Source: Negativicutes bacterium
GTDB taxonomy: Bacteria > Bacillota_C > Negativicutes > Sporomusales_B > JARLHX01
Reading direction: 5' to 3'
Length of the DNA: 9,121 nucleotides
Assembly: GCA_031292015.1 (NCBI GenBank)
Contig: JARLHY010000165.1
Span: forward strand, 1 to 9,121
This document shows positions 2 to 9,121 of the stretch, in pieces. The first letter of the stretch is position 1, and every line of letters starts with the position of its first letter. Under the pieces are notes generated by a model. That model did not search any database and had not been told where the DNA came from. It saw nothing but the letters and a program-made list of their open reading frames with translations. Made by a program: the position numbers and the translations under genes.

Positions 2-196
2 AACTATGGCCGAGTGGTGACCAAAGACCGGATTATCCAAAAGGTATGGGGCTATAATTCGGACGCCGAATTTACCGCCGTCAACCTGTATATTCATTAT
101 CTGCGCAAGAAGCTCAACACCTCCAGTATCAGGACCGTGCGGGGAATCGGCTATTGCATGCAGCGGGAAGAAACATTGTCCAAAACGGCGAACTGA
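2..196 (+). CDS. Response regulator, OmpR/PhoB family, C-terminal DNA-binding domain (5' end outside the window)
   Basis: The reading frame is open from the left edge, so this is the 3' end of a longer gene: 64 codons and a TGA stop. It encodes the second half of a winged-helix effector domain. A segment reading VVTKDRIIQKVWGY precedes the recognition helix, which reads EFTAVNLYIHYLRKKL, and the C-terminal wing reads IRTVRGIGYCM. This is the usual pattern of OmpR/PhoB regulators (xVDVHIxxLRKKL, then IxTVRGxGYxL). Such proteins are phosphorylated by a sensor kinase and bind direct repeats at promoters. The receiver domain and partner kinase lie outside the window, so the signal and targets are unknown. 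A strong terminator follows at once, so the gene is probably a separate unit from the flagellar genes. The GTG at 14 is an internal codon, not a start. Confidence 0.9.
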   Translation, partial: NYGRVVTKDRIIQKVWGYNSDAEFTAVNLYIHYLRKKLNTSSIRTVRGIGYCMQREETLSKTAN

Positions 197-239: not shown

Positions 240-352
240 CATATATCGATTACATCTGATAATTTTCACCAAAAAGTAGGCTGCTACTAAACATTCTTCA
301 AACAAAAGACTTCGAAATCAGTTATAGACAACAATGAAAGGAGGACCTGCCA

Positions 353-460: not shown

Positions 461-1747
461 ATGGGTATCACTATCGCAACCAATATGTCAGCTCTCAACA
501 CCTGGAACCAGTTGACCAAAAACACCAATGCCATGAATAGCGCCCTGGAGAAACTGTCGTCAGGCTACAAGATCAACTCCGCGTCCGACGACGCCGCCGG
601 TCTGGCCATCTCGGAAAAGATGCTAAACCAGATCAACGGTCTCGACCAGGCCAGCAACAACGCCCAGGACGCCTCTTCTCTCGTTCAGACGGCCGACGGT
701 GCCCTGGAAGAAACCAACTCCATCCTGGAACGGATGCGGGAACTGGCTGTTCAGTCAGCCAGCGACACCAACACCAGCGCCGACCGCGCCAACATCCAGG
801 ACGAAGTCGACGCTCTGGTGAGCGAGATCAACAACATTGCCGACACTACTCAGTTCAATACCAAGAAACTGCTGGACGGCTCGATGAGCAAAGCTGTCGC
901 CACCGCCACCGTCAACATCGAGTCCAACGACGCCCTCAAAAACTCGGGCGGCACCTTAGCTACCAACACCGCTCTTACCGCCCTCACTGACACCGCCGGC
1001 AACAGCCTCGGTATCGCCACTGGGGACACGGTAACAGTCAGCTACATGAAGGATGGCACCCTCTACTCCAAATCCATTACTCTCACCACCGCAAACGTTG
1101 GCAGTGTCACGCTGAACTCCCTTGCGACGGGAGCCGGCTTTAAACTGTCGGTTGTCGCCGCCGCCTCCTCCACTGCCAAAGGAGTCGCCACCGGCACGGT
1201 GCAGGCGACTGCCAGCACCACAGGTACGGCCGGAGCTATCTACGGCCTGACCATCAAGGTCACCGATAAAAACGACGACAATATCTCGGCCGCTACTGAC
1301 GCGCTGTCTTCCTTCACCCAGACCACGGCAGCCAAGGATAAGACTGTCACAGGCACGGCCACTGTTCTCATCGGCGCCAACACCGGCCAGGACATCAGCA
1401 TCAACATCGGCAACATGGACGCTACAGCCCTCGGGGTGGAAGGCATTGATGTCAGCAGCCAGGCGGCAGCGAACGTCGCCATCAGCGTCATCGATACCGC
1501 CACCGCCACTGTGTCGGCTCAGCGGGCCGAACTCGGCGCAGTTGTCAACCGGCTGGACGCCACTACTTCCAACCTGTCCACCGCCAGCGAAAATCTGACT
1601 GCCGCCAACTCCCTCATCAAAGACACCGACATGGCGTCAGAGATGGCGACTTACACCAAGCTGAGCGTCATCACCCAGGCGGCGACCGCTATGCTGGCCC
1701 AGGCCAATTCCCAGCCCCAGTCGGTATTGAAACTGATCCAAGGATAA
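461..1747 (+). CDS. hag: Flagellin (filament subunit)
   Basis: The 428-residue protein polymerises into the flagellar filament after export through the flagellar type III apparatus. Residues 1-140 are the conserved N-terminal D0/D1 region, with KLSSGYKINSASDDAAGLAI at 31-50 and LERMRELAVQ at 89-98, the stretch that overlaps the TLR5-recognised site in other flagellins. Residues 303-326 contain LIGANTGQDISINIGNMDA, the usual start of the C-terminal D1 helices. Residues 385-428 form the C-terminal D0, ending in MLAQANSQPQSVLKLI. Between them (about 142-302) is a Thr/Ala/Ser-rich insertion corresponding to outer domains D2/D3. Bacillus Hag, about 304 residues, lacks most of this. The protein has no cysteine. 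The start is fixed by AAGGAGG at 445-451, 9 bases before ATG; the ATG at 453 is out of frame. The gene is likely under flagellar sigma factor and CsrA control, though no sigma-28 box could be assigned. It could equally be called fliC. Confidence 0.97.
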   Translation: MGITIATNMSALNTWNQLTKNTNAMNSALEKLSSGYKINSASDDAAGLAISEKMLNQINGLDQASNNAQDASSLVQTADGALEETNSILERMRELAVQSASDTNTSADRANIQDEVDALVSEINNIADTTQFNTKKLLDGSMSKAVATATVNIESNDALKNSGGTLATNTALTALTDTAGNSLGIATGDTVTVSYMKDGTLYSKSITLTTANVGSVTLNSLATGAGFKLSVVAAASSTAKGVATGTVQATASTTGTAGAIYGLTIKVTDKNDDNISAATDALSSFTQTTAAKDKTVTGTATVLIGANTGQDISINIGNMDATALGVEGIDVSSQAAANVAISVIDTATATVSAQRAELGAVVNRLDATTSNLSTASENLTAANSLIKDTDMASEMATYTKLSVITQAATAMLAQANSQPQSVLKLIQG

Positions 1748-1812
1748 ATGACCTTTTGACCTGCTTATCAGCTTAAAAAGCGGGTCCAAACCTAAGATCG
1801 CCATGCGATCGG

Positions 1813-1863
1813 AACGGAGTCGTGCGCTCTTCCCAGCGGGAGAAGGGCGTCTGACTCCGTTTT
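1813..1863 (+). terminator. Probable terminator or 3'-end-stabilising hairpin of the flagellin transcript
   Basis: A 9-bp stem (AACGGAGTC at 1813-1821 with GACTCCGTT at 1853-1861) encloses an inner stem of about 8 bp (1825-1832 with 1842-1849, one G-U pair). It is followed by only a short T tract, TTTT at 1860-1863, partly inside the stem. The large hairpin may protect the flagellin mRNA from 3' decay as well as terminate it. The weak T tract lowers certainty for pure intrinsic termination. Confidence 0.65.
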
Positions 1864-1978
1864 GGCTTATTGATGATAAGCGTTCCGATTAAAATATAAA
1901 TTAAAGACTCTGTAAAATACGGATCAAATATTGGCAGCCGATGAACAGGCATAGGGTGAAACACACCCCAATCATTGC

Positions 1979-1985
1979 AAGGAGG
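1979..1985 (+). promoter_or_regulatory. Ribosome binding site that sets the start of the Ser-rich gene
   Basis: AAGGAGG stands 6 bases upstream of ATG 1992. The frame is open further upstream to an ATG at 1941, but that codon has no Shine-Dalgarno sequence. The 17 residues it would add are basic, unlike the Ser-rich acidic protein. The start is therefore placed at 1992. Confidence 0.85.
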
Positions 1986-1991
1986 AAGACA

Positions 1992-2771
1992 ATGAGTATA
2001 TCGTCCAACAGCATCTGGCAGTTATACGCCAACCAGGCCTATTCAGCCATCACCGGCACTCCTGCGTTGCAGGCGACCTCCGCCGTCAGTTCGCAGACCA
2101 CCTCGTCCACCGGCAGCATCCAGGGCATCGGCAACAGTTCTCTGGACAGTTTCCAGCTGTCCGGTACCAGTGACGCCATGTCGGCCGGACTCTACGGACC
2201 GCCGCCCCCTATGCCGCTGGATAACTCCAGCTCCGCCAGTTCCAGCACAAGTAGCTCCAGCTCGGACACCTTGATGAGCGACATCCAGAGCTTCTTATCC
2301 AAGGCGGCTGACGGGACGGTCACCGATTCCGACCTTACTGCCCTGGAGAGCGAGCTGCAGAGCGCCGGTGTCACGGGTACCAGCTCGACCAGTTCCAGCA
2401 GCGACAGCAGCACTGTTGCCAGCACCAGCTCCAGTACCGGCTCCGGCAATCTCATGAGCGACATCCAGAGCTTCCTGTCCAAGGCGGCTGACGGTACAGC
2501 CACCGACTCCGACCTCACCGCTCTCGAAAGCGAGTTGCAGAGCGCGCAACAGAGCTCGCAGCAGTTCGCGCCGCCGCCGCCCCCCGTGCCGCCGGATAGT
2601 TCCACCTCCACCAGTTCCAGCTCCGCCAGTTCCGGTTCCGATACCCTCATGAACGATATCCAGAGCTTCCTGGCCAAAGCGGCTGCAGGCACGGTCACCC
2701 AGTCCGATCTCACCTCCCTCGAGAGCGAGCTGCAAAGCGCCGGCAGCGCAACCAGCACCTCCCAGGTATAA
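1992..2771 (+). CDS. Unrecognised Ser-rich protein with three near-identical helix-loop-helix-like modules
   Basis: I do not recognise this 259-residue protein. Serine is about 28% of residues, and there is no cysteine. It has no Sec signal peptide and no membrane segment. Residues 1-70 are Ser/Thr/Ala-rich. Three 32-residue modules follow at 94-125, 154-185 and 219-250, each starting LM(S/N)DIQSFL and ending LESELQSA. They are separated by poly-Ser linkers and two proline runs (PPPPMP at 70-75, PPPPPVPP at 194-201). Each module reads as helix, short DGTVTDSD-like turn, helix. The turn resembles positions 5-12 of an EF-hand loop, but the first two acidic ligands are missing (S and A instead), and module 3 has lost more acidic residues, so calcium binding is doubtful. 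It sits between flagellin and a TPR-glycosyltransferase with its own RBS and terminator. A disordered N-terminus without a signal peptide would suit export by the flagellar apparatus, but this is inference. It could instead be a cytoplasmic or otherwise secreted adaptor. Confidence 0.8.
   Translation: MSISSNSIWQLYANQAYSAITGTPALQATSAVSSQTTSSTGSIQGIGNSSLDSFQLSGTSDAMSAGLYGPPPPMPLDNSSSASSSTSSSSSDTLMSDIQSFLSKAADGTVTDSDLTALESELQSAGVTGTSSTSSSSDSSTVASTSSSTGSGNLMSDIQSFLSKAADGTATDSDLTALESELQSAQQSSQQFAPPPPPVPPDSSTSTSSSSASSGSDTLMNDIQSFLAKAAAGTVTQSDLTSLESELQSAGSATSTSQV
2271..2366 (+). repeat. Module 1 of the Ser-rich protein (32 codons)
   Basis: Encodes residues 94-125. It differs from module 2 at 15 of 96 bases, but only one change alters the protein (Val to Ala in the turn). 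The other 14 are synonymous. Confidence 0.9.
2451..2546 (+). repeat. Module 2 of the Ser-rich protein (32 codons)
   Basis: Encodes residues 154-185, starting exactly 60 codons after module 1. The protein is identical to module 1 at 31 of 32 positions, while 13 codons differ. Confidence 0.9.
2646..2741 (+). repeat. Module 3 of the Ser-rich protein (32 codons)
   Basis: Encodes residues 219-250, 65 codons after module 2. It matches module 1 at 27 of 32 residues. Changes are S to N, S to A, D to A, D to Q and A to S. Two of these remove acidic side chains from the turn. Confidence 0.88.
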
Positions 2772-2796: not shown

Positions 2797-2840
2797 CCAG
2801 GCGCCCATTCAGCGAATGAGCGCCTGGTATATCTGTTTTT
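2797..2840 (+). terminator. Rho-independent terminator after the Ser-rich gene
   Basis: An 8-bp stem (CCAGGCGC at 2797-2804 with GCGCCTGG at 2820-2827) continues past one C-A mismatch into CATTC/GAATG with an AGC loop. A TTTTT tract lies at 2836-2840, separated from the stem by 8 bases, which is longer than ideal. The structure lies 25 bases after the stop codon and 21 bases before the next gene. Confidence 0.7.
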
Positions 2841-2860: not shown

Positions 2861-4219
2861 ATGACAGTGACAAGGTATATTAACGAAGGACTGGCGCTGG
2901 CCAGGCAGGGTGAGCTGCGGCAGGCGGCGCTGCTTCTCTGCCTGGCCGTGAAACTGGACCCGGATCGGGCGGAAGCCTATCGGCACCTGGGTGAGGTTCT
3001 GATACCACTGCAGCGCTGGGAGGATGCCGAGGCCTGCTTCTTCCGGGCTGTTGCCCTGCAACCTCACTTTCCCGAGGCTCACAACTATCTTGGGGTAGTG
3101 TTGAACCATAAGAAAGACCTGAGCGGGGCCGAAGCCTGCTATCAGCGGGCCATTGGGCAAAATCCCGGCTATGCCGAGGCTTATCACAATCTGGGGAGCT
3201 GCTTCAAACAGGCCAATCGTATTGATGAAGCCGAGGCATGTTATCGTCGGGCCCTTGAACTGCAGCCGGACCTCAGGGACTCTCGTTTTTCCCTGGCGAC
3301 ACTGTATTTGTTGCGGGGAGAGTATGAGCTGGGCTGGCAGCTTCACGAGTCGCGCTGGCAGGGAGACTTCCGGCTGGATATCCCGCTCTGGCAGGGGGAA
3401 GATCTGACCGGGTGCAAAATTCTTCTCTTCTTCGAGCAAGGCTATGGCGATATGCTTCAATTTGTCCGCTACGCTTATATTGTCGCGAAACAGGCGGCGG
3501 TGACAGTATGGATCCAAAAACCGCTCAAGCGTTTGCTGGCCGGCAGCCAGACCGCCTTTTCAGTCTGTACCGGCAGGACGCTACCTGAGGAATCCTTCGA
3601 TTACGCGTGTTCCCTTCTAAGTTTGCCTTTTCACTGCAAAACATCCCTGGCGACCATTCCCAATGACGTCCCATATCTCCACGCGGGGGCGGAAATCACC
3701 GCCAGGTGGCGGGATAAAATTGACGCCGCCGCCGGCGGGCGCTGCCGGGTAGGGGTGGTATGGGCAGGTAATCCGGAGCATTCCGATGACGCGAACCGGT
3801 CCATCGCCTTTGCGTTGTTCGGCCGGCTGTTTTCGGTGGAAGGAATCGCCTTCTTCAGTCTGCAGGCCGGCGGGAAAAGCCGGCAATTGCCGTCGCTGCC
3901 CAGCGAAGTATTTGACTGCTGCGGGCAGCTCGCCGATTTCGCGGAAACGGCCGGAGTGATCGCCAACCTGGATTTAGTCATTGCCGTCGATACGGCGGTG
4001 GCTCATCTGGCCGGCGCCATGGGCAAAAAGACCTGGCTCCTCCTGCCGTTCAAGCCGGACTGGCGGTGGGGCCTGGACCGCGAAGACAGCCCCTGGTATC
4101 CCACGATGCGCCTCTTCCGCCAACGTCAACCCGGCGACTGGCAGGAGGTATTGGAAAGGGTGGCCGCGGCCTTACATCGCCGGATCAAGGCTTCCGCTCA
4201 AAATACAGCAGGCAGCTGA
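2861..4219 (+). CDS. TPR-repeat protein with GT9/heptosyltransferase-like glycosyltransferase domain; candidate flagellar-protein glycosyltransferase
   Basis: This 452-residue protein has two parts. Residues 3-138 hold four 34-residue TPR units (about 3-36, 37-70, 71-104, 105-138) with typical A-EAY-LG and A--CY-RA-L-P patterns, followed by a partial unit to about 165. TPRs usually bind a protein partner. Residues 185-440 resemble the C-terminal domain of TPR-linked glycosyltransferases related to family 9. Motifs are FEQGYGDMLQFVRY (191-204), VGVVWAGNP (297-305) with NRSI (312-315), VIAVDTAVAHLAGAMGK (373-389) and WRWGLDREDSPWYPTMRLFR (401-420). Similar proteins are often encoded next to flagellin genes and are presumed to glycosylate flagellin. 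The sugar donor and acceptor cannot be read from sequence. ATG 2861 has AAAGG 7 bases upstream. There is no signal peptide, so it is cytoplasmic, where flagellins are modified before export. An acceptor other than flagellin, such as the adjacent Ser-rich protein, is possible. Confidence 0.85.
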   Translation: MTVTRYINEGLALARQGELRQAALLLCLAVKLDPDRAEAYRHLGEVLIPLQRWEDAEACFFRAVALQPHFPEAHNYLGVVLNHKKDLSGAEACYQRAIGQNPGYAEAYHNLGSCFKQANRIDEAEACYRRALELQPDLRDSRFSLATLYLLRGEYELGWQLHESRWQGDFRLDIPLWQGEDLTGCKILLFFEQGYGDMLQFVRYAYIVAKQAAVTVWIQKPLKRLLAGSQTAFSVCTGRTLPEESFDYACSLLSLPFHCKTSLATIPNDVPYLHAGAEITARWRDKIDAAAGGRCRVGVVWAGNPEHSDDANRSIAFALFGRLFSVEGIAFFSLQAGGKSRQLPSLPSEVFDCCGQLADFAETAGVIANLDLVIAVDTAVAHLAGAMGKKTWLLLPFKPDWRWGLDREDSPWYPTMRLFRQRQPGDWQEVLERVAAALHRRIKASAQNTAGS

Positions 4220-4266: not shown

Positions 4267-4686
4267 TTAGCCCCGCTTGTTGAACCGGCTTCCCTGGATC
4301 GGGATCGTCCAGCAGTTAACATACTGATGCTGTAGCCGGCGCCCTGTCCGGACGTCGAACAATCGGGTTCCGACCCGGTCCCGGGCTGCCATCGCCTCCT
4401 GCAGGGCTGTGTCCCAGCAGGCCAGTATTTCCAGTTTTCTTGCCGCAATCGCTTCGGTCAGTTTTTTCAGGTCAGGCTGTCCGGCTGGGCTGTGCGCGCC
4501 AGCAGTCATCTCCCTGTCCAGTTTGAGAAGCTTGTCGATCAGCGCCGCCCGCTCGTTCAGCAGGCGACGGAGCCCCCGCATCTCACCCCGGCGGGCGAAG
4601 CGGGCCTGTTTCTCGGTGTTGACTTTGATCTCATCAAGTAGTTTCAGCTTGTTTCTCAGAAGATTGATGACCTTGTTCGCATCCAA
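4267..4686 (-). CDS. FliT/FlgN-like flagellar export chaperone (small, helical)
   Basis: This 139-residue, almost entirely helical protein is rich in Leu, Lys, Arg and Glu. It lies directly downstream of fliD, where many bacteria keep fliS/fliT. Residues 1-75 form a long amphipathic helix region with LLRNKLKLLDEIKVNTEKQA and LRRLLNERAALIDKLLKLDR. Residues 76-112 form a second helix. The tail is less regular and ends in SRFNKRG. Length and helical character match the FlgN/FliT class, which binds FlgK, FlgL or FliD in the cytoplasm and delivers them to the export gate. Sequence alone does not decide between FliT and FlgN. Translation starts at TTG (4684-4686): the only nearby ATG is out of frame and stops after eight codons, and the next in-frame Met is residue 35. 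The Shine-Dalgarno sequence overlaps the fliD stop, so translational coupling is likely. Confidence 0.75.
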   Translation of the reverse strand: MDANKVINLLRNKLKLLDEIKVNTEKQARFARRGEMRGLRRLLNERAALIDKLLKLDREMTAGAHSPAGQPDLKKLTEAIAARKLEILACWDTALQEAMAARDRVGTRLFDVRTGRRLQHQYVNCWTIPIQGSRFNKRG

Positions 4687-4696
4687 TTCCGCTCCG

Positions 4697-4704
4697 CTCC
4701 TTTA
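4697..4704 (-). promoter_or_regulatory. Ribosome binding site of the chaperone gene, overlapping the fliD stop codon
   Basis: On the minus strand the fliD TAA and the Shine-Dalgarno sequence are fused as TAAAGGAG, followed by 10 bases and the TTG start. Ribosomes finishing fliD are thus placed on the next start. Confidence 0.75.
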
Positions 4705-6654
4705 CGAGGATGACGAGGAAAGGTACGATTCCAGCGCCGATAGCTGGGTATTCATTTTGTTGATGTAGGTCTCCAGGCTGGAGTACTCGGTGTAAACCCT
4801 GTCCTCATAGGTGCTTAGCCGGTCCTGCTCGGCCGTGATCTCCGTCTCGTACTTGGAAATCTGGGTAGACAGCGAGTTGTCGCTGGCGTATAGCGTATCG
4901 GCCACCCCGGCCTTCGACACCAGCAAGCCTTCTGCTTTGCTGCTTATTGACGTATATTTTTCAATGACATCGTAAAAACGGTAAGCGATGCCTTCCTCGT
5001 TGTATCTTGTCGACCGTTCCGAGGAATCCAGGTCGGTCAGGGTGCCGGTGGTTCCCGAGACGCTGCTCGCCTGCTGGGTGAACAGCGCGATCACGGCGTC
5101 CGGGTTATCCTCAATGGCGCTCTTCAGGGTGCTTTCGGTGATGGTGAGTTTGCCGTTGTCGGTATAACTGTCGGAGGTGTCGATGCCGATATCAAAAACG
5201 CTGGTGGACAGCCCGGAGACTGAATTGATCATCGTGTCCCGCAGTTCGGTCAGGAAGCTTGACAGGGTCGAGTCATTCTCCAGCAGGCCGGTCTTGGCCT
5301 TTTCTTCGTAGTTGGTGATCTGGGTGTCGGTCATGCTCGACTTCTGGTCGTCGGTCAGCGGTGGGTAGTCCGAGTCGTAGTCCTCGTCGATCGTATCGTT
5401 GATGGTGGCGATCAGGGCGTTGTAATCGGAAACGAAATTGCTGATCAGATCATAGACCGCGTCGGTATCCCGGGCCACGGTGACCGTGGCAGCGCTGTCG
5501 GAGGACGACGAAGAAGACGAAGAGTCGGTGGTAACGGTGTTAAAAGTGTAGGCCACGCCGTCGACGGTGAGGTTGTTGGCGCTGCGGGTGTAGGACGTCC
5601 CGTCGATGGTTACCTTGGCGTCGGTACCTGCGGTCGATACGCTCAGGCAGTTCGACAAAAAGTTTTCGTTGCCGGTGTCACTCTCGCTCACCGTCAGGGT
5701 ATTGCCGGCGCCGGTGCTGTCCGCCGTCAGTATCAGCTTGCCGCTTGTTTCGTCATATTCCGCGGTAGCCCCGCAGTCGGCGTCATTGATATCGCTGACC
5801 ATTTCGGCGATGGTTGTGCTCTTGTCAAAAGAAGGGATAGTAACGCCGTTGATTGCCAGGGTTATACTGTCGTTATCGCTGTCAAAGGTCAGCCCGGAGA
5901 TGTCCGCAAGGGTCGAGGATGTGGTCAGACGGTTGGACGTGCCGCTGGTAAGGCCGAGGTCGGACAGGGCGCTGGTGCCGGAGGCGGGAGAACTGATGCT
6001 GATATCGTCCACGCCGCTGTCCACCGTGTCGCCGTTGGAGTCGGTGTAGGTGGCTGAAATAGTCAGATAGCCTGAGGAGTTGGTGCCTACCGTCAGCTTG
6101 TCCGCGCCGACCGCGTCGTCGATGGTCGACTGCAGGCTATCGATGTCGGTCACATCGCTGCAGTCAACAGTGTACTCGGTGCCGTCCAGAGTGATATCAA
6201 AGCCCGTGCCGCTAAGGGCTGAGTAGGATGGCGCCGAGTCGCCGGTGATGTCGCCTGCGAGGCTGGCGCTGCTCTCCAGCGTTGCCGCCGCGGCCAACTG
6301 GCTGACAGAGACGGTGTGGCTGCCTGCGCTGGCGTCGCTGGTGTAAGTGGCTGTGACTGCGGCACTGCTGCTGGTAACCGAATACTGGGACAGATTCGTG
6401 GAACTCAGCAGGCTGCTGGAGGAAGTAGCGTCGAAATAGGTGCTTTCAAAAGCGTCGATATCGGTGATGATCGACCGGTAGGAGTCCTGCTTCCACTCCG
6501 AAAGCTGTTCCTTCTCCTGCAGCTTGTCCAGTTTTTTGGCCTTTTCGGCAGTCATCAGCTCGCTGACGATGGTATCGACGTCGATGCCTGACGACAGGCC
6601 GGTGTATCTTGTTGTTCCGTTGACGGTGGTCGCGCTGATGGTGCTTGAAGACAT
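4702..6654 (-). CDS. fliD: Flagellar hook-associated protein 2, filament cap
   Basis: FliD sits at the distal tip of the filament and guides insertion of flagellin. The FliD N-terminal domain is at about residues 15-125, opening with YTGLSSGIDVDTIVSELMTA (17-36). A flagellin-IN-like repeat is near 263-292 (SITLAINGVTI...IAEMVSDIND). The FliD C-terminal domain covers about 395-645. Its landmarks are YPPLTDDQKSSMTDTQI (430-446), KTGLLENDSTLSSFLTELR (454-472) and ITESTLKSAIEDNPDAVIALF (505-525), and it ends in a coiled coil (595-645) and a poly-Ser tail. At 650 residues it is clearly longer than Bacillus or enteric FliD (roughly 470-500); the extra length is a Ser/Thr/Asp-rich middle (about 130-395) with a run of eight serines at 378-385. 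It contains three cysteines (165, 294, 336). AAGGAGGGG lies 6 bases before the ATG. It follows flgL after 39 bp, probably in one operon. Confidence 0.97.
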   Translation of the reverse strand: MSSSTISATTVNGTTRYTGLSSGIDVDTIVSELMTAEKAKKLDKLQEKEQLSEWKQDSYRSIITDIDAFESTYFDATSSSSLLSSTNLSQYSVTSSSAAVTATYTSDASAGSHTVSVSQLAAAATLESSASLAGDITGDSAPSYSALSGTGFDITLDGTEYTVDCSDVTDIDSLQSTIDDAVGADKLTVGTNSSGYLTISATYTDSNGDTVDSGVDDISISSPASGTSALSDLGLTSGTSNRLTTSSTLADISGLTFDSDNDSITLAINGVTIPSFDKSTTIAEMVSDINDADCGATAEYDETSGKLILTADSTGAGNTLTVSESDTGNENFLSNCLSVSTAGTDAKVTIDGTSYTRSANNLTVDGVAYTFNTVTTDSSSSSSSSDSAATVTVARDTDAVYDLISNFVSDYNALIATINDTIDEDYDSDYPPLTDDQKSSMTDTQITNYEEKAKTGLLENDSTLSSFLTELRDTMINSVSGLSTSVFDIGIDTSDSYTDNGKLTITESTLKSAIEDNPDAVIALFTQQASSVSGTTGTLTDLDSSERSTRYNEEGIAYRFYDVIEKYTSISSKAEGLLVSKAGVADTLYASDNSLSTQISKYETEITAEQDRLSTYEDRVYTEYSSLETYINKMNTQLSALESYLSSSSS

Positions 6655-6693: not shown

Positions 6694-8016
6694 TTAGGCC
6701 ATATAGTCGACCAGTGTTTTGCTGATCGCCTTGGCGCCGACGGACAGGGACGCGTCATAGACGGTTTCGGCGCTGGATTCTTCGATGGTGGCCTTGGCTG
6801 TGTCCACATCCTCGTTGTTGCTCATCAGGCCGGTGTAGGTCGTATAGTCGCTGCTGAGGCGGTCGGACACGTTGCTGACATGGCTCTCGCTGGCCCCTAA
6901 GGCGGCCTGGGCGGTAGTAAGCATATCAACATTGTTGTCGAGGTCGGTGAGCAGCGCGTCAATGTCGCTGATGCTGGTGGCTGTCGAGGTGCCTGTGGCG
7001 GAGTCGTAGGTTTCGTAGCTGGTATCGCCGTTGAGCGCCAGGAGTACCTTGGAAAAGGTGTCGAACAGGCTGGTGCCGGTGCTGGAGCCGACCACGTCCT
7101 GGCCCTCGGTATTCACGGTGATGTCCGAGCCGTAGCCGATGTTGTACTTGATCGACTGGGCGGAGGTGGAGGAGTAAACGCCGGTGGCGGTGTAGACACC
7201 AGCCATGGTGGCGGCACTGAGAGAACTGGAGTAGGTGGTGGTGAGATATTCCCCTTTGTAGGTGACCTGATCAATGTCGTTGGCAATACTGAAGGTAAAC
7301 CCGTCTCCAGTTGTATAGCCGCCTGCCGGGGCGCTCAGGGTGATCGTTCCGCCCGAGGTTGTGGTGAGGGAAACCGAACCGGTGCTCGACGTGGTCGTGC
7401 CGGTAGCAACCGTATTGTTCGACGCATCTTTCATGGTGACGGTGTAGGTGCCACTGCTCTCAGTCACACCTATGGTGTAGTTGTCGCCTGCGGTGAGATC
7501 GCCGCTGAGACTGAGGCTGGCGGCGGTATAGTTGCCGGTGCCGGCAGTGAAAGCGCTTACGGCGGAGCCCTGGACCAGGGCGTAAGGTGCAGTGTCGGTG
7601 TCGTAGCCGCCGAAGATGTAGCGTCCGCCGTAGGTGGTATTCATGATATCGACAGCCTGGTCTTCCAGCTCGCTGATTTCGGTGGCGATGTCGGACAAGT
7701 CGCTGTCGGTCATGGTGGCGCTGGAGGCTTTCGCCACCAGTGTCCGCGTCTGGGTGATGACGTCGCTGAGGCTGCTCAGGGCGTCGTCGGTAACGCTCTG
7801 CCAGGACTGGACGTCACTGACGTTGGTCTGGTACTGCTCAATGGTGTCCACGTAGTTGCGGTACTTTATCGCTCTGGTGGCTACCACCGGGTCGTCGGAA
7901 GGCAGCGAGATCTTTTTCTCGGACGATACCCGCTCCTCGGCTTCGTTCATCCGGTTGGCGGCGTTGTTGATATTCTTGATGGTATTGGCGACAATCATGT
8001 TATTGGTAATTCTCAC
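6694..8016 (-). CDS. flgL: Flagellar hook-associated protein 3 (hook-filament junction)
   Basis: FlgL forms the second junction ring between hook and filament. The 440-residue protein begins MRITNNMIVANTIKNINNAA, followed by the conserved VSSEKKISLPSDDPVVATRA (30-49). Residues 130-138 read GGRYIFGGY, the usual end of the N-terminal helical domain. The C-terminal helices cover about 351-440 (DIDALLTDLDNNVDMLTTAQ, later AKATIEESSAETVYDASLSV). Residues 150-248 are a Thr/Ser/Gly-rich beta-like insertion, which largely explains why it is longer than the roughly 300 residues of Bacillus or enteric FlgL. There is no cysteine. The start is GTG (8014-8016), set by AAAGGAGG 7 bases upstream, and it gives the expected MRITN terminus. 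The 15-bp gap to flgK and the SD adjoining the flgK stop suggest coupled translation. Confidence 0.97.
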   Translation of the reverse strand: MRITNNMIVANTIKNINNAANRMNEAEERVSSEKKISLPSDDPVVATRAIKYRNYVDTIEQYQTNVSDVQSWQSVTDDALSSLSDVITQTRTLVAKASSATMTDSDLSDIATEISELEDQAVDIMNTTYGGRYIFGGYDTDTAPYALVQGSAVSAFTAGTGNYTAASLSLSGDLTAGDNYTIGVTESSGTYTVTMKDASNNTVATGTTTSSTGSVSLTTTSGGTITLSAPAGGYTTGDGFTFSIANDIDQVTYKGEYLTTTYSSSLSAATMAGVYTATGVYSSTSAQSIKYNIGYGSDITVNTEGQDVVGSSTGTSLFDTFSKVLLALNGDTSYETYDSATGTSTATSISDIDALLTDLDNNVDMLTTAQAALGASESHVSNVSDRLSSDYTTYTGLMSNNEDVDTAKATIEESSAETVYDASLSVGAKAISKTLVDYMA

Positions 8017-8023
8017 TGAAGGC

Positions 8024-8034
8024 CCTCCTTTCTA
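8024..8034 (-). promoter_or_regulatory. Ribosome binding site of flgL, adjoining the flgK stop codon
   Basis: Read on the minus strand, the flgK stop TAG is followed directly by AAAGGAGG, then 7 bases and GTG. The strong SD supports the non-ATG start and suggests reinitiation after flgK. Confidence 0.85.
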
Positions 8035-9121
8035 GTCCGACACCATGTCGATGGTCGTCTCATAGATGGAATCCCAGGTTGTGACCGCTTTGGCGGAAGC
8101 CTCGTAGGCCTCCTGGTATTTGGTCAGATTGGCCGTTTCTTCGTTGGTGGACACCCCCGACACCGAAGATCGGCTGGAGTCGATGTACGAGGCGATGGAG
8201 CTCTGCACGCTGTCCTGGCGCGAGGCGAAGGATGTGGCTGTGCCCAGGGTGGCGATGATTGAGTTGTAGTAATCTTCGGCCGTCCCGCTGGCGAACATCC
8301 GCGAATCGTCGCAGATGCTGATCAGATTCTGGACGTTGGTATTGTCACCGGATGTGTCGTCAGCCGACGAGGCGGCCGCGATGGTGGACAGGTCGTCCTC
8401 CACGTCCGACGACAGCGATATGTTGGCGGCAGTGATGTTGGCGTACACGTCAGCCATGCTGGATGAGGAGATATCCGCAGCCAGCGTGCTGGAGGAAAGG
8501 CCGTCGTAAGAGAAAAACCGGTAGCCTGTATTGCCGTCGGTGCCGTAACCGGCGGAGTAGCCGCTGTAGTAGGAACTTCCGTCCTTGTAGACGCCTTCGT
8601 TGAAAGCTTCGGCGAAGGTCTGGGCGAAGGTGTCCAGCTGGGACATGTAGTAGGGTATGCCCTGATACTCCCCGTCGCTGCCGGTTCCGTCCCGCAGGTC
8701 GAGGTCGGCCTTCAGCGAACCGCTGCTGCCCGGACTGAAAGAGGCCCCGGTGTCGGCCCAGACGACATCGTACATGCCGTCGGTGCCGGTGGTGCACTCC
8801 AGCTGACGGGCCTCGTTGCCGTTGACCAGGGTCGCGCCGCCCACCGAGATGTCGTAGGTGGTGACGTCGGAGCCGCCGGCGGTGGTGCCGATGACGGTCT
8901 TGGTTACCGAGACGTCGGCCAGAGCCGATAGCTTGTCGACAAGCAAGTCCCGCTGGTCTTCCAGTTCGTTGGCCGAGGAGCCGGAAGCCTCGGCCACGGA
9001 AATCCGCTGGTTGAGATCAGCAATCTGCTGGCTGTAGGAGTTGATCTCATCCACCTGTGTTTTCACATCGCTGTTGACATCGGCCCGCAGCGAGGTCAAC
9101 TCCGAGGAGGCGTTGTTGAGA
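8032..9121 (-). CDS. flgK: Flagellar hook-associated protein 1, C-terminal part (5' end outside the window)
   Basis: FlgK forms the first junction ring on the hook. The frame is open through the right edge, giving 362 residues here; the TTG at 9097-9099 is an internal Leu codon, not a start. The visible part begins with a helical segment (DVKTQVDEINSYSQQIADLN, then RISVAEASGSSANELEDQRD and LLVDKLSAL), which matches the conserved FlgK linker between the N-terminal helices and the outer domain. A Ser/Gly/Asp-rich middle follows. The C-terminal helix reads TANLTKYQEAYEASAKAVTTWDSIYETTIDM, given here as TANLTKYQEAYEASAKAVTT plus WDSIYETTIDM, the class-defining hook-associated C-terminus. Two cysteines occur in the visible part. 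It is the first visible gene of the flgK-flgL-fliD-chaperone operon; its promoter lies outside the window. Confidence 0.96.
   Translation of the reverse strand, partial: LNNASSELTSLRADVNSDVKTQVDEINSYSQQIADLNQRISVAEASGSSANELEDQRDLLVDKLSALADVSVTKTVIGTTAGGSDVTTYDISVGGATLVNGNEARQLECTTGTDGMYDVVWADTGASFSPGSSGSLKADLDLRDGTGSDGEYQGIPYYMSQLDTFAQTFAEAFNEGVYKDGSSYYSGYSAGYGTDGNTGYRFFSYDGLSSSTLAADISSSSMADVYANITAANISLSSDVEDDLSTIAAASSADDTSGDNTNVQNLISICDDSRMFASGTAEDYYNSIIATLGTATSFASRQDSVQSSIASYIDSSRSSVSGVSTNEETANLTKYQEAYEASAKAVTTWDSIYETTIDMVSD

Follow-up and report, generated by a model that had tools for sequence, protein, structure and literature searches.

The window, i.e. the whole stretch of 9,121 nucleotides analysed here, opens with the end of a regulator gene, behind which follow, on the same strand, a flagellin gene, a gene for a Ser-rich protein built of modules (the module gene) and a glycosyltransferase gene, with further flagellar genes on the opposite strand (Table 1). 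The module gene is real: its design is kept in the two closest relatives of its product, P0001 (99% identical) and P0002 (65%), both of the same architecture, and in dozens of distant ones, and it is therefore no chance ORF. An in-frame ATG at position 1941 also opens a longer reading of this ORF; since P0001 and P0002 both begin at the MSIS methionine, the ATG at 1992 is the likely start. GC at third positions amounts to 0.80, not far from the 0.68, 0.76 and 0.77 of the neighbours. An earlier reading of the DNA letters (the sequence-only reading) had described a Cys-free protein of 259 residues, about 28% of them Ser, behind AAGGAGG and ATG and composed of three modules. The ORF reading and a composition count (73 Ser, no Cys) bear this out, the modules being near-identical, 34 residues each, with pairwise agreement at 31, 29 and 26 of the 34 positions. 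The 'own terminator' claimed for the gene stands in so far as a strong hairpin lies behind it, but the T run follows only about 9 nt past the hairpin on the plus strand, and a terminator scanner reports the site at 2797-2827 for the minus strand only. The other large hairpin, between the flagellin and module genes, is very stable and branched, and goes beyond a plain terminator in complexity.

Table 1. Annotated features of the window, in order of position
Feature	Position	Strand	Remarks
C-terminal part of OmpR-type response regulator	2..196	+	most like regulators beside module genes and flagellins
Candidate regulatory box of flagellin gene	286..317	+	13/18 positions; same place as fuller boxes of L107, L114, L201
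Flagellin, Flagellin_N and Flagellin_C, starts MGITIATN	461..1747	+	
Large hairpin between flagellin and module gene	1807..1889 (about)	+	folding z -6.20
Candidate regulatory box of module gene	1912..1943	+	13/18 consensus positions, 48 nt before start; weak alone
Ribosome-binding site AAGGAGG	1979..1985	+	
CDS, Ser-rich three-hairpin protein, 259 aa	1992..2771	+	ORF reading and relatives
Leader: MSISS start, short predicted helix (very low confidence), DSFQLS motif at residues 52-57	1992..2177	+	similar leader in EF-hand-bearing relatives
Helical hairpin module 1, residues 91-124	2262..2363	+	
Helical hairpin module 2, residues 151-192	2442..2567	+	
Helical hairpin module 3, residues 216-253	2637..2750	+	
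Hairpin 3' of module gene, possible terminator	2797..2827	+	folding z -5.15
TPR protein with GT9-like glycosyltransferase C-terminus	2861..4219	+	
FlgN/FliT-like chaperone	4267..4686	-	below Pfam cut-off
FliD	4702..6654	-	
Flagellin-fold protein, FlgL by position	6694..8016	-	Flagellin_N match; Flagellin_C just under cut-off
FlgK, cut by window end	8032..9120	-	

For both the window protein and P0009, AlphaFold2 predicts separate helix-turn-helix hairpins (block pLDDT about 61-83) joined by disordered linkers; with a pTM of 0.23 for both models their overall confidence is low, and the packing of the hairpins is therefore left unstated. The N-terminus, described earlier as disordered, is largely so, except for a short helix predicted at residues 6-21 with very low confidence, and inspection by eye agrees with the earlier statement that neither a Sec signal nor a membrane segment is visible. 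A Foldseek search with the predicted structure gave no match at E <= 0.001; the likeness to YnzC/UPF0291 helical hairpins (Foldseek E 5.8) stays within what is common for helical pairs. Among solved structures the best sequence match of the relative P0003, a bacterial proteasome activator (E 0.0014), was likewise put down to helical likeness. NCBIfam held no match above cut-off for the window protein, and in Pfam the sole match above cut-off is EAD10, over half of the model.

Its relatives place the gene in an unnamed family whose members, from anaerobic bacteria that swim, are built like strings of beads. Each protein search scored only the approximately 7,990 candidates with most words in common; within this limit, the window protein as query retrieved at least four proteins at E <= 0.001, P0003 at least 25, and an alignment of 18 rows at least 93 at E <= 1e-6, the query members included. 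Members carry one to six modules of the type DIKSFLDKVANGTVTDSDLQNMQSEL on Ser-, Pro- or His-rich linkers, and include Heliobacillus mobilis GJ688_04310 by name; further loci lie in a Peptococcaceae MAG, Pelosinus propionicus, Desulfosporosinus and a Negativicutes MAG. Phages and viral contigs searched with the window protein, and plasmids searched with P0003, yielded no homologues, and a scan of genome contigs with the single window protein gave no match. Neither the module family nor the promoter box described below was found in a literature search confined to open-access papers, and the parts of PMC6199725 and PMC6337784 that were available hold nothing decisive. Three module proteins (P0015, P0035, P0036) are named 'soluble cytochrome b562' at source and P0032 'regulator of sigma D', names that look like annotation errors arising from helical likeness.

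Among 28 listed module proteins, 18 begin exactly M-x-I/V-S-S and six more have ISS slightly later, and a motif like D-T-F-E/Q-L-S, mostly some 45-55 residues in, occurs in 17, the 11 lacking it including those of Pelosinus. A similar leader also carries other cargo. In three weak matches of a class-wide search, it is followed by a DGDTFQLS or DGDTFQMS motif and then by EF-hands (L055, L052) or by one module plus EF-hands (L049), whereas L161 joins a similar start to hairpins of the DUF2680 type (41.6 bits against a cut-off of 25); P0027 likewise combines modules with what appears, by eye, to be one EF-hand. Because similar leaders carry EF-hand or DUF2680 cargo, the leader is treated here as a unit of its own. 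The EF-hand-bearing leader relatives L055, L049 and L052 match the model of XopAW-family EF-hand proteins (NF041410), whose name implies type III secretion, but at 100, 55 and 27 bits, compared with a curated cut-off of 120. On the window protein itself, neither NF041410 (up to E 1) nor DUF2680 (PF10925) gave a match. By eye, FlgM too shows a start followed by a D-x-V-x-L-S motif, in the order found in the leader. Homology of the leader and hairpins to FlgM was nevertheless rejected as a candidate: with 17 of 24 FlgM loci read, the leader against the FlgM N-terminus was not significant (p 0.03-0.12), and FlgM (PF04316) is absent from the 15 Pfam families listed for the window protein up to E 1.

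Does the gene always travel with flagellin, the question that the sequence-only reading raised? Module loci of 11-20 kb were compared, several of them incomplete on one side and L049 with its mixed protein counted in. Only one of 15 other loci (L045) has flagellar genes (flagellin, FliS, FlgN and FliD) close to the module gene, so that gene order, taken alone, speaks against constant travel with flagellin. In the other 14 (L001-L004, L042-L044, L046-L050, L053 and L054) tblastn found none of the window's flagellar proteins, and flagellar genes are absent from the heliobacterial regions L166 and L167 too. The link to flagella that the sequence-only reading suggested is supported by other routes, namely regulation (the promoter box described below) and co-occurrence in genomes. 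Of 380 Negativicutes genomes, 247 have a Flagellin_N match, and 28 were matched in the alignment search, of which 11 were accepted as holding module proteins and two as leader-only after their frames had been read; the 15 weak matches dropped before the count included four inspected ones, which turned out to be three flagellins and one unrelated frame. All 11 accepted module-positive genomes are flagellated (p 0.008, kinship not corrected for), as are all 13 when the leader-only genomes are added (p 0.003). Two of the dropped matches, G532 and G260, come from genomes without a flagellin match, and would thus spoil the perfect score if counted as positive. Many flagellated Negativicutes genomes show no module match.

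A standard sigma-28 promoter (TAAA, 14-16, GCCGATAA) was sought before module genes and rejected, none of 15 reaching p < 0.05 against shuffles (lowest 0.08). It was during this search that another element was spotted by eye, as first seen TTCAAAGG-N3-TTCCAA-N10-CGATA; the box before module genes reads TTCAAAG-N4-TTCMAA-N10-CGATA and is present before 12 of the 17 module genes with readable upstream DNA, the two heliobacterial members having none upstream. Since the training sites of the position weight matrix (PWM) were picked in the same module genes, its scores for these genes are circular outside the leave-one-out run. In that run, 12 of 15 module-gene sites score 13.9-31.1, and ten of these exceed 15.6, the highest score reached on shuffled sequence. 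The sites of L003, L043 and the window fall short of 8.5, the limit for listing; three non-module places (two in L045, one in L051) score 16.4-21.6. L090 and L091, also scored, had been fetched for their box and are not independent, whereas L161, found by its protein and outside the training set, has a box scoring 33.4, with a regulator as convergent neighbour.

Genome scans with the consensus extend the box to other genes; because the consensus was drawn from module genes, module matches in training genomes are circular. In the 11 module-holding genomes, 37 sites at three or fewer mismatches compare with 20 for a reversed control, and the 13 sites at two or fewer comprise nine before module genes, two before FlxA-like genes (one of these assigned by likeness only) and two inside ORFs. 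Across 82 genomes of the class of G003, two or fewer mismatches gave 27 sites versus 11 for the control; the 23 that were read fall inside ORFs (13), before leader genes (five: L170, L175, L176, L177, L188) or in other intergenic places, upstream of other genes or of none (five). At one mismatch or fewer, all four sites of that scan have a leader or module gene downstream, the site in G167 being a training site. The largest scan, of 380 Negativicutes genomes (the class of G002) at one mismatch or fewer, yielded 17 sites against two for the control pattern. Ten of these precede module genes (L199 and L210, both in training genomes), FlxA-like genes (L198, L208, L209, and L196, the last by likeness only, without a Pfam match), DTVELS-coil genes (L206, with a FlxA match just under the cut-off, and L207), a Ser-rich gene (L200) or a flagellin (L201). 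Two have related targets, a FlxA-like remnant (L197) and a GT2-like gene whose contig carries a flagellin (L211), while the other five lie before unrelated genes (L203, L204, L205; Sec-type secreted proteins in the first two) or have no clear target (L195, L202). Behind the perfect box of L197 (G007) just the end of a FlxA-like gene is left; the module gene and the FlxA start seem to have been lost there through deletion.

FlxA-like proteins (PF14282; E. coli flxA) offer a close comparison, being small, with a Ser-rich start and membership of a flagellar regulon; several stand behind the same box here, and in L002 and L042 the gene after the module gene is of this kind, but their cargo is a coiled coil, in contrast to the hairpins of the module family. 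According to PMC4183435, E. coli flxA is driven by a FliA promoter; compared with that promoter as printed there, AAAG and CGATA stand 4 nt further apart in the box described here.

The box precedes many module genes and some flagellins, and is weak for the window's own two genes. There the matches before fliC and the module gene have p-values of 0.033 and 0.03 (0.81, i.e. nothing, before the glycosyltransferase gene), two further matches at 13 of 18 positions occur elsewhere in the window, and by PWM the two boxes rank at 15% and 20% of 381 genes. The window has CTAAACATTCTTCAAACAAAAGACTTCGAAAT where L201 has TTCAAAGATTCTTCAAAGATTCCCAGCCGATAT, AGACA and GAAAGGAGG then following in both. Flagellins at large mostly have neither box nor regulator. 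For this comparison, 30 loci with the best Flagellin_N matches were taken, of which 29 were read (L109 at a neighbouring copy that has 110 nt of upstream DNA). A box score of at least 10 was found in four of the 29, L107, L114, L115 and L117, the last lacking CGATA; the OmpR-type regulator described below lies within 1.5 kb of the flagellin in two of the 30, L115 (where it is split over two frames) and L122. Three of the 29 flagellins start MGM or MGL (L107, L114, L122), two of them with a full box and the third with a regulator and a variant box, while among the remaining 26 a score of 10 is reached by L115 and L117 only. The L201 flagellin, which came from the box scan, also has an MGM start, whereas the window flagellin begins MGITIATN and that of L045 MSMVINTN. 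The type of promoter apparently differs between flagellins with an MGM/MGL start (L107, L114, L122, L201) and those with a MIINHN start, the others of L096-L125.

The regulator fragment at the window's edge, compared over 64 residues or fewer, is 53-67% identical to regulators of a clade (48% for an outsider in L053), which lie beside module genes (L001, L043, L045a, L053, L054), leader genes (L052, L161) and flagellins (L045b, L122). Full-length members share 45-72% identity (88% in a tandem pair), compared with 26-43% for other regulators in the loci, and by this measure the clade is clear, with the exception of the L054 regulator, only 43% identical, and of one regulator in L167. Such a regulator adjoins the module gene in five of 15 loci. 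For regulators of the OmpR type, an 11-bp repeat in place of the -35 element is the usual layout. The box resembles PhoB/OmpR-type activator boxes in having two direct repeats, spaced by 11 bp, which stand in for the -35 element and end some 10 nt short of the -10 region, and in the presence of an OmpR-type regulator nearby in some loci; it differs in that the repeats read TTCAAAG and the -10 region CGATA, and binding is putative. In locus L054 (7174-8977) the G167 module gene also lies beside a sigma factor gene and an RsgI-type anti-sigma gene.

The reading that we favour, with a little more than an even chance in our estimate, is that the gene encodes a protein of the late flagellar regulon, probably exported by the flagellar machine. 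Its family has a similar start and tandem helical hairpins, and 12 of the 17 module genes with readable upstream DNA stand behind the box of two 11-bp-spaced repeats, TTCAAAG and TTCMAA, 10 nt before CGATA. Genes of the FlxA-like, DTVELS-coil and EF-hand-leader kinds and some flagellins have this box in front of them too. A regulator of the clade that adjoins some of these genes, the window flagellin included, may bind the repeats, which would then substitute for a -35 element; if so, the module protein would be made together with an MG-type flagellin. The gene appears to be switched on together with one flagellin type, so that its product is probably sent out through the flagellum. Less surely, the leader could act as a flagellar export signal, in which case the protein would exit via the flagellar channel and act outside the cell, either on the filament or free in the surroundings, as small helical hairpins strung together in a flexible, multivalent way. 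That the flagellar machine exports it is plausible from the leader, the regulon, the lack of a Sec signal and linkers that look extracellular; the best-supported steps are the family, the leader-cargo plan and the common box. FlgM occurs once in each of 24 genomes examined, and a sigma-28 circuit therefore exists besides.

Could the Ser-rich linkers instead be glycosylated by the neighbouring TPR-glycosyltransferase, making the protein a secreted, glycan-bearing component of the surface or filament? The enzyme was proposed earlier as a partner, and it does adjoin the module gene in the window; a more distant copy (46%) is the immediate upstream neighbour of the module gene in P. propionicus, G010 and G012 (as seen in loci L002, L042 and L044), the Pelosinus-type order being HD-domain gene, glycosyltransferase, module gene and FlxA-like gene. 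However, the second-closest copy (60%), in G012, lies in the order FliS-glycosyltransferase-flagellin, as expected of a flagellin-modifying enzyme, and the closest (66%), in G482, is 16 kb away from a flagellin, with a different copy at only 0.4 kb from that flagellin. Moreover, G007, G008 and G009 have a copy of the enzyme and no module-gene match (in G008, a FlxA-like gene is directly behind it), while G001, G003, G005, G159 and G167 have the module gene and no match to the enzyme. A pairing of the two genes is possible in Pelosinus and not general, and we regard the linkers as doubtful acceptors.

Unlikely to a similar degree is that the protein stays inside the cell as a cytoplasmic scaffold, chaperone or regulator of FlgM-like hairpins, co-expressed with flagellin. 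E. coli FlxA shows that membership of the regulon need not go with a known flagellar role (PMC4183435), and profiles of the module and the FlgM C-terminus align weakly (p 0.009 and 0.033); yet the similar leader on unrelated cargo and the very high Ser and Pro content would suit an exported protein better, and FlgM is already present in all 24 genomes tested. Improbable in our view is a third proposal, that the modules are degenerate EF-hands, with calcium sensing or binding as the role of the protein. The loop DGTVTDSD resembles an EF loop, dockerins give weak matches, and L049 (with P0027, seemingly) mixes module and EF-hands, but the window modules have Ser or Ala at loop positions 1 and 3, most relatives combine Asp at position 1 with a hydrophobic residue at position 3, the model has a 4-residue turn in place of an EF loop, and no EF-hand family emerged from the Pfam scan of the window protein. 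Least credible is an EAD10-type adaptor of a conflict (defence) system, a class defined by fusion to or neighbourhood with conflict-system effectors: PF19954 does score 30.4 bits on the window protein (Pfam gathering cut-off 24.1) and 49-63 bits on P0005 and L043, but the best stretch covers positions 5-41 of 77, one hairpin and not the full-length domain, and no effector domain is fused to the protein or was found among the subset of neighbours scanned with Pfam.

A wider scheme may be conceived for flagellated Bacillota, to which we give somewhat less than an even chance: one leader would serve as the address tag for varied cargo (hairpin beads, EF-hands, DUF2680), and a dedicated OmpR-type regulator would switch all of it on together with a second, MG-type flagellin, for delivery through the flagellum. 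Flagellar export of non-structural proteins is known in a few bacteria, but the sequence rules for finding such cargo are poor; a leader combined with a recognisable promoter box would supply a rule for a group of anaerobes. It would also link flagellin to the FlxA-like proteins and similar families, and suggest that sigma-28 is not the sole regulator of flagellin. Further members of the regulon can be predicted with the box.

The module protein at L045:9108-10379 has a cysteine cluster, CTICTGCGRC, near its start, and L158 and L159 combine a Sec-like start with repeats LDNLVTSGTITQDDVTAIQTALEAA, i.e. a similar hairpin within an ordinary secreted protein. In P. propionicus (L081), a box with three mismatches precedes the gene of a flagellin-like protein that has an HExxH motif and is possibly a flagellinolysin-like member of the regulon.
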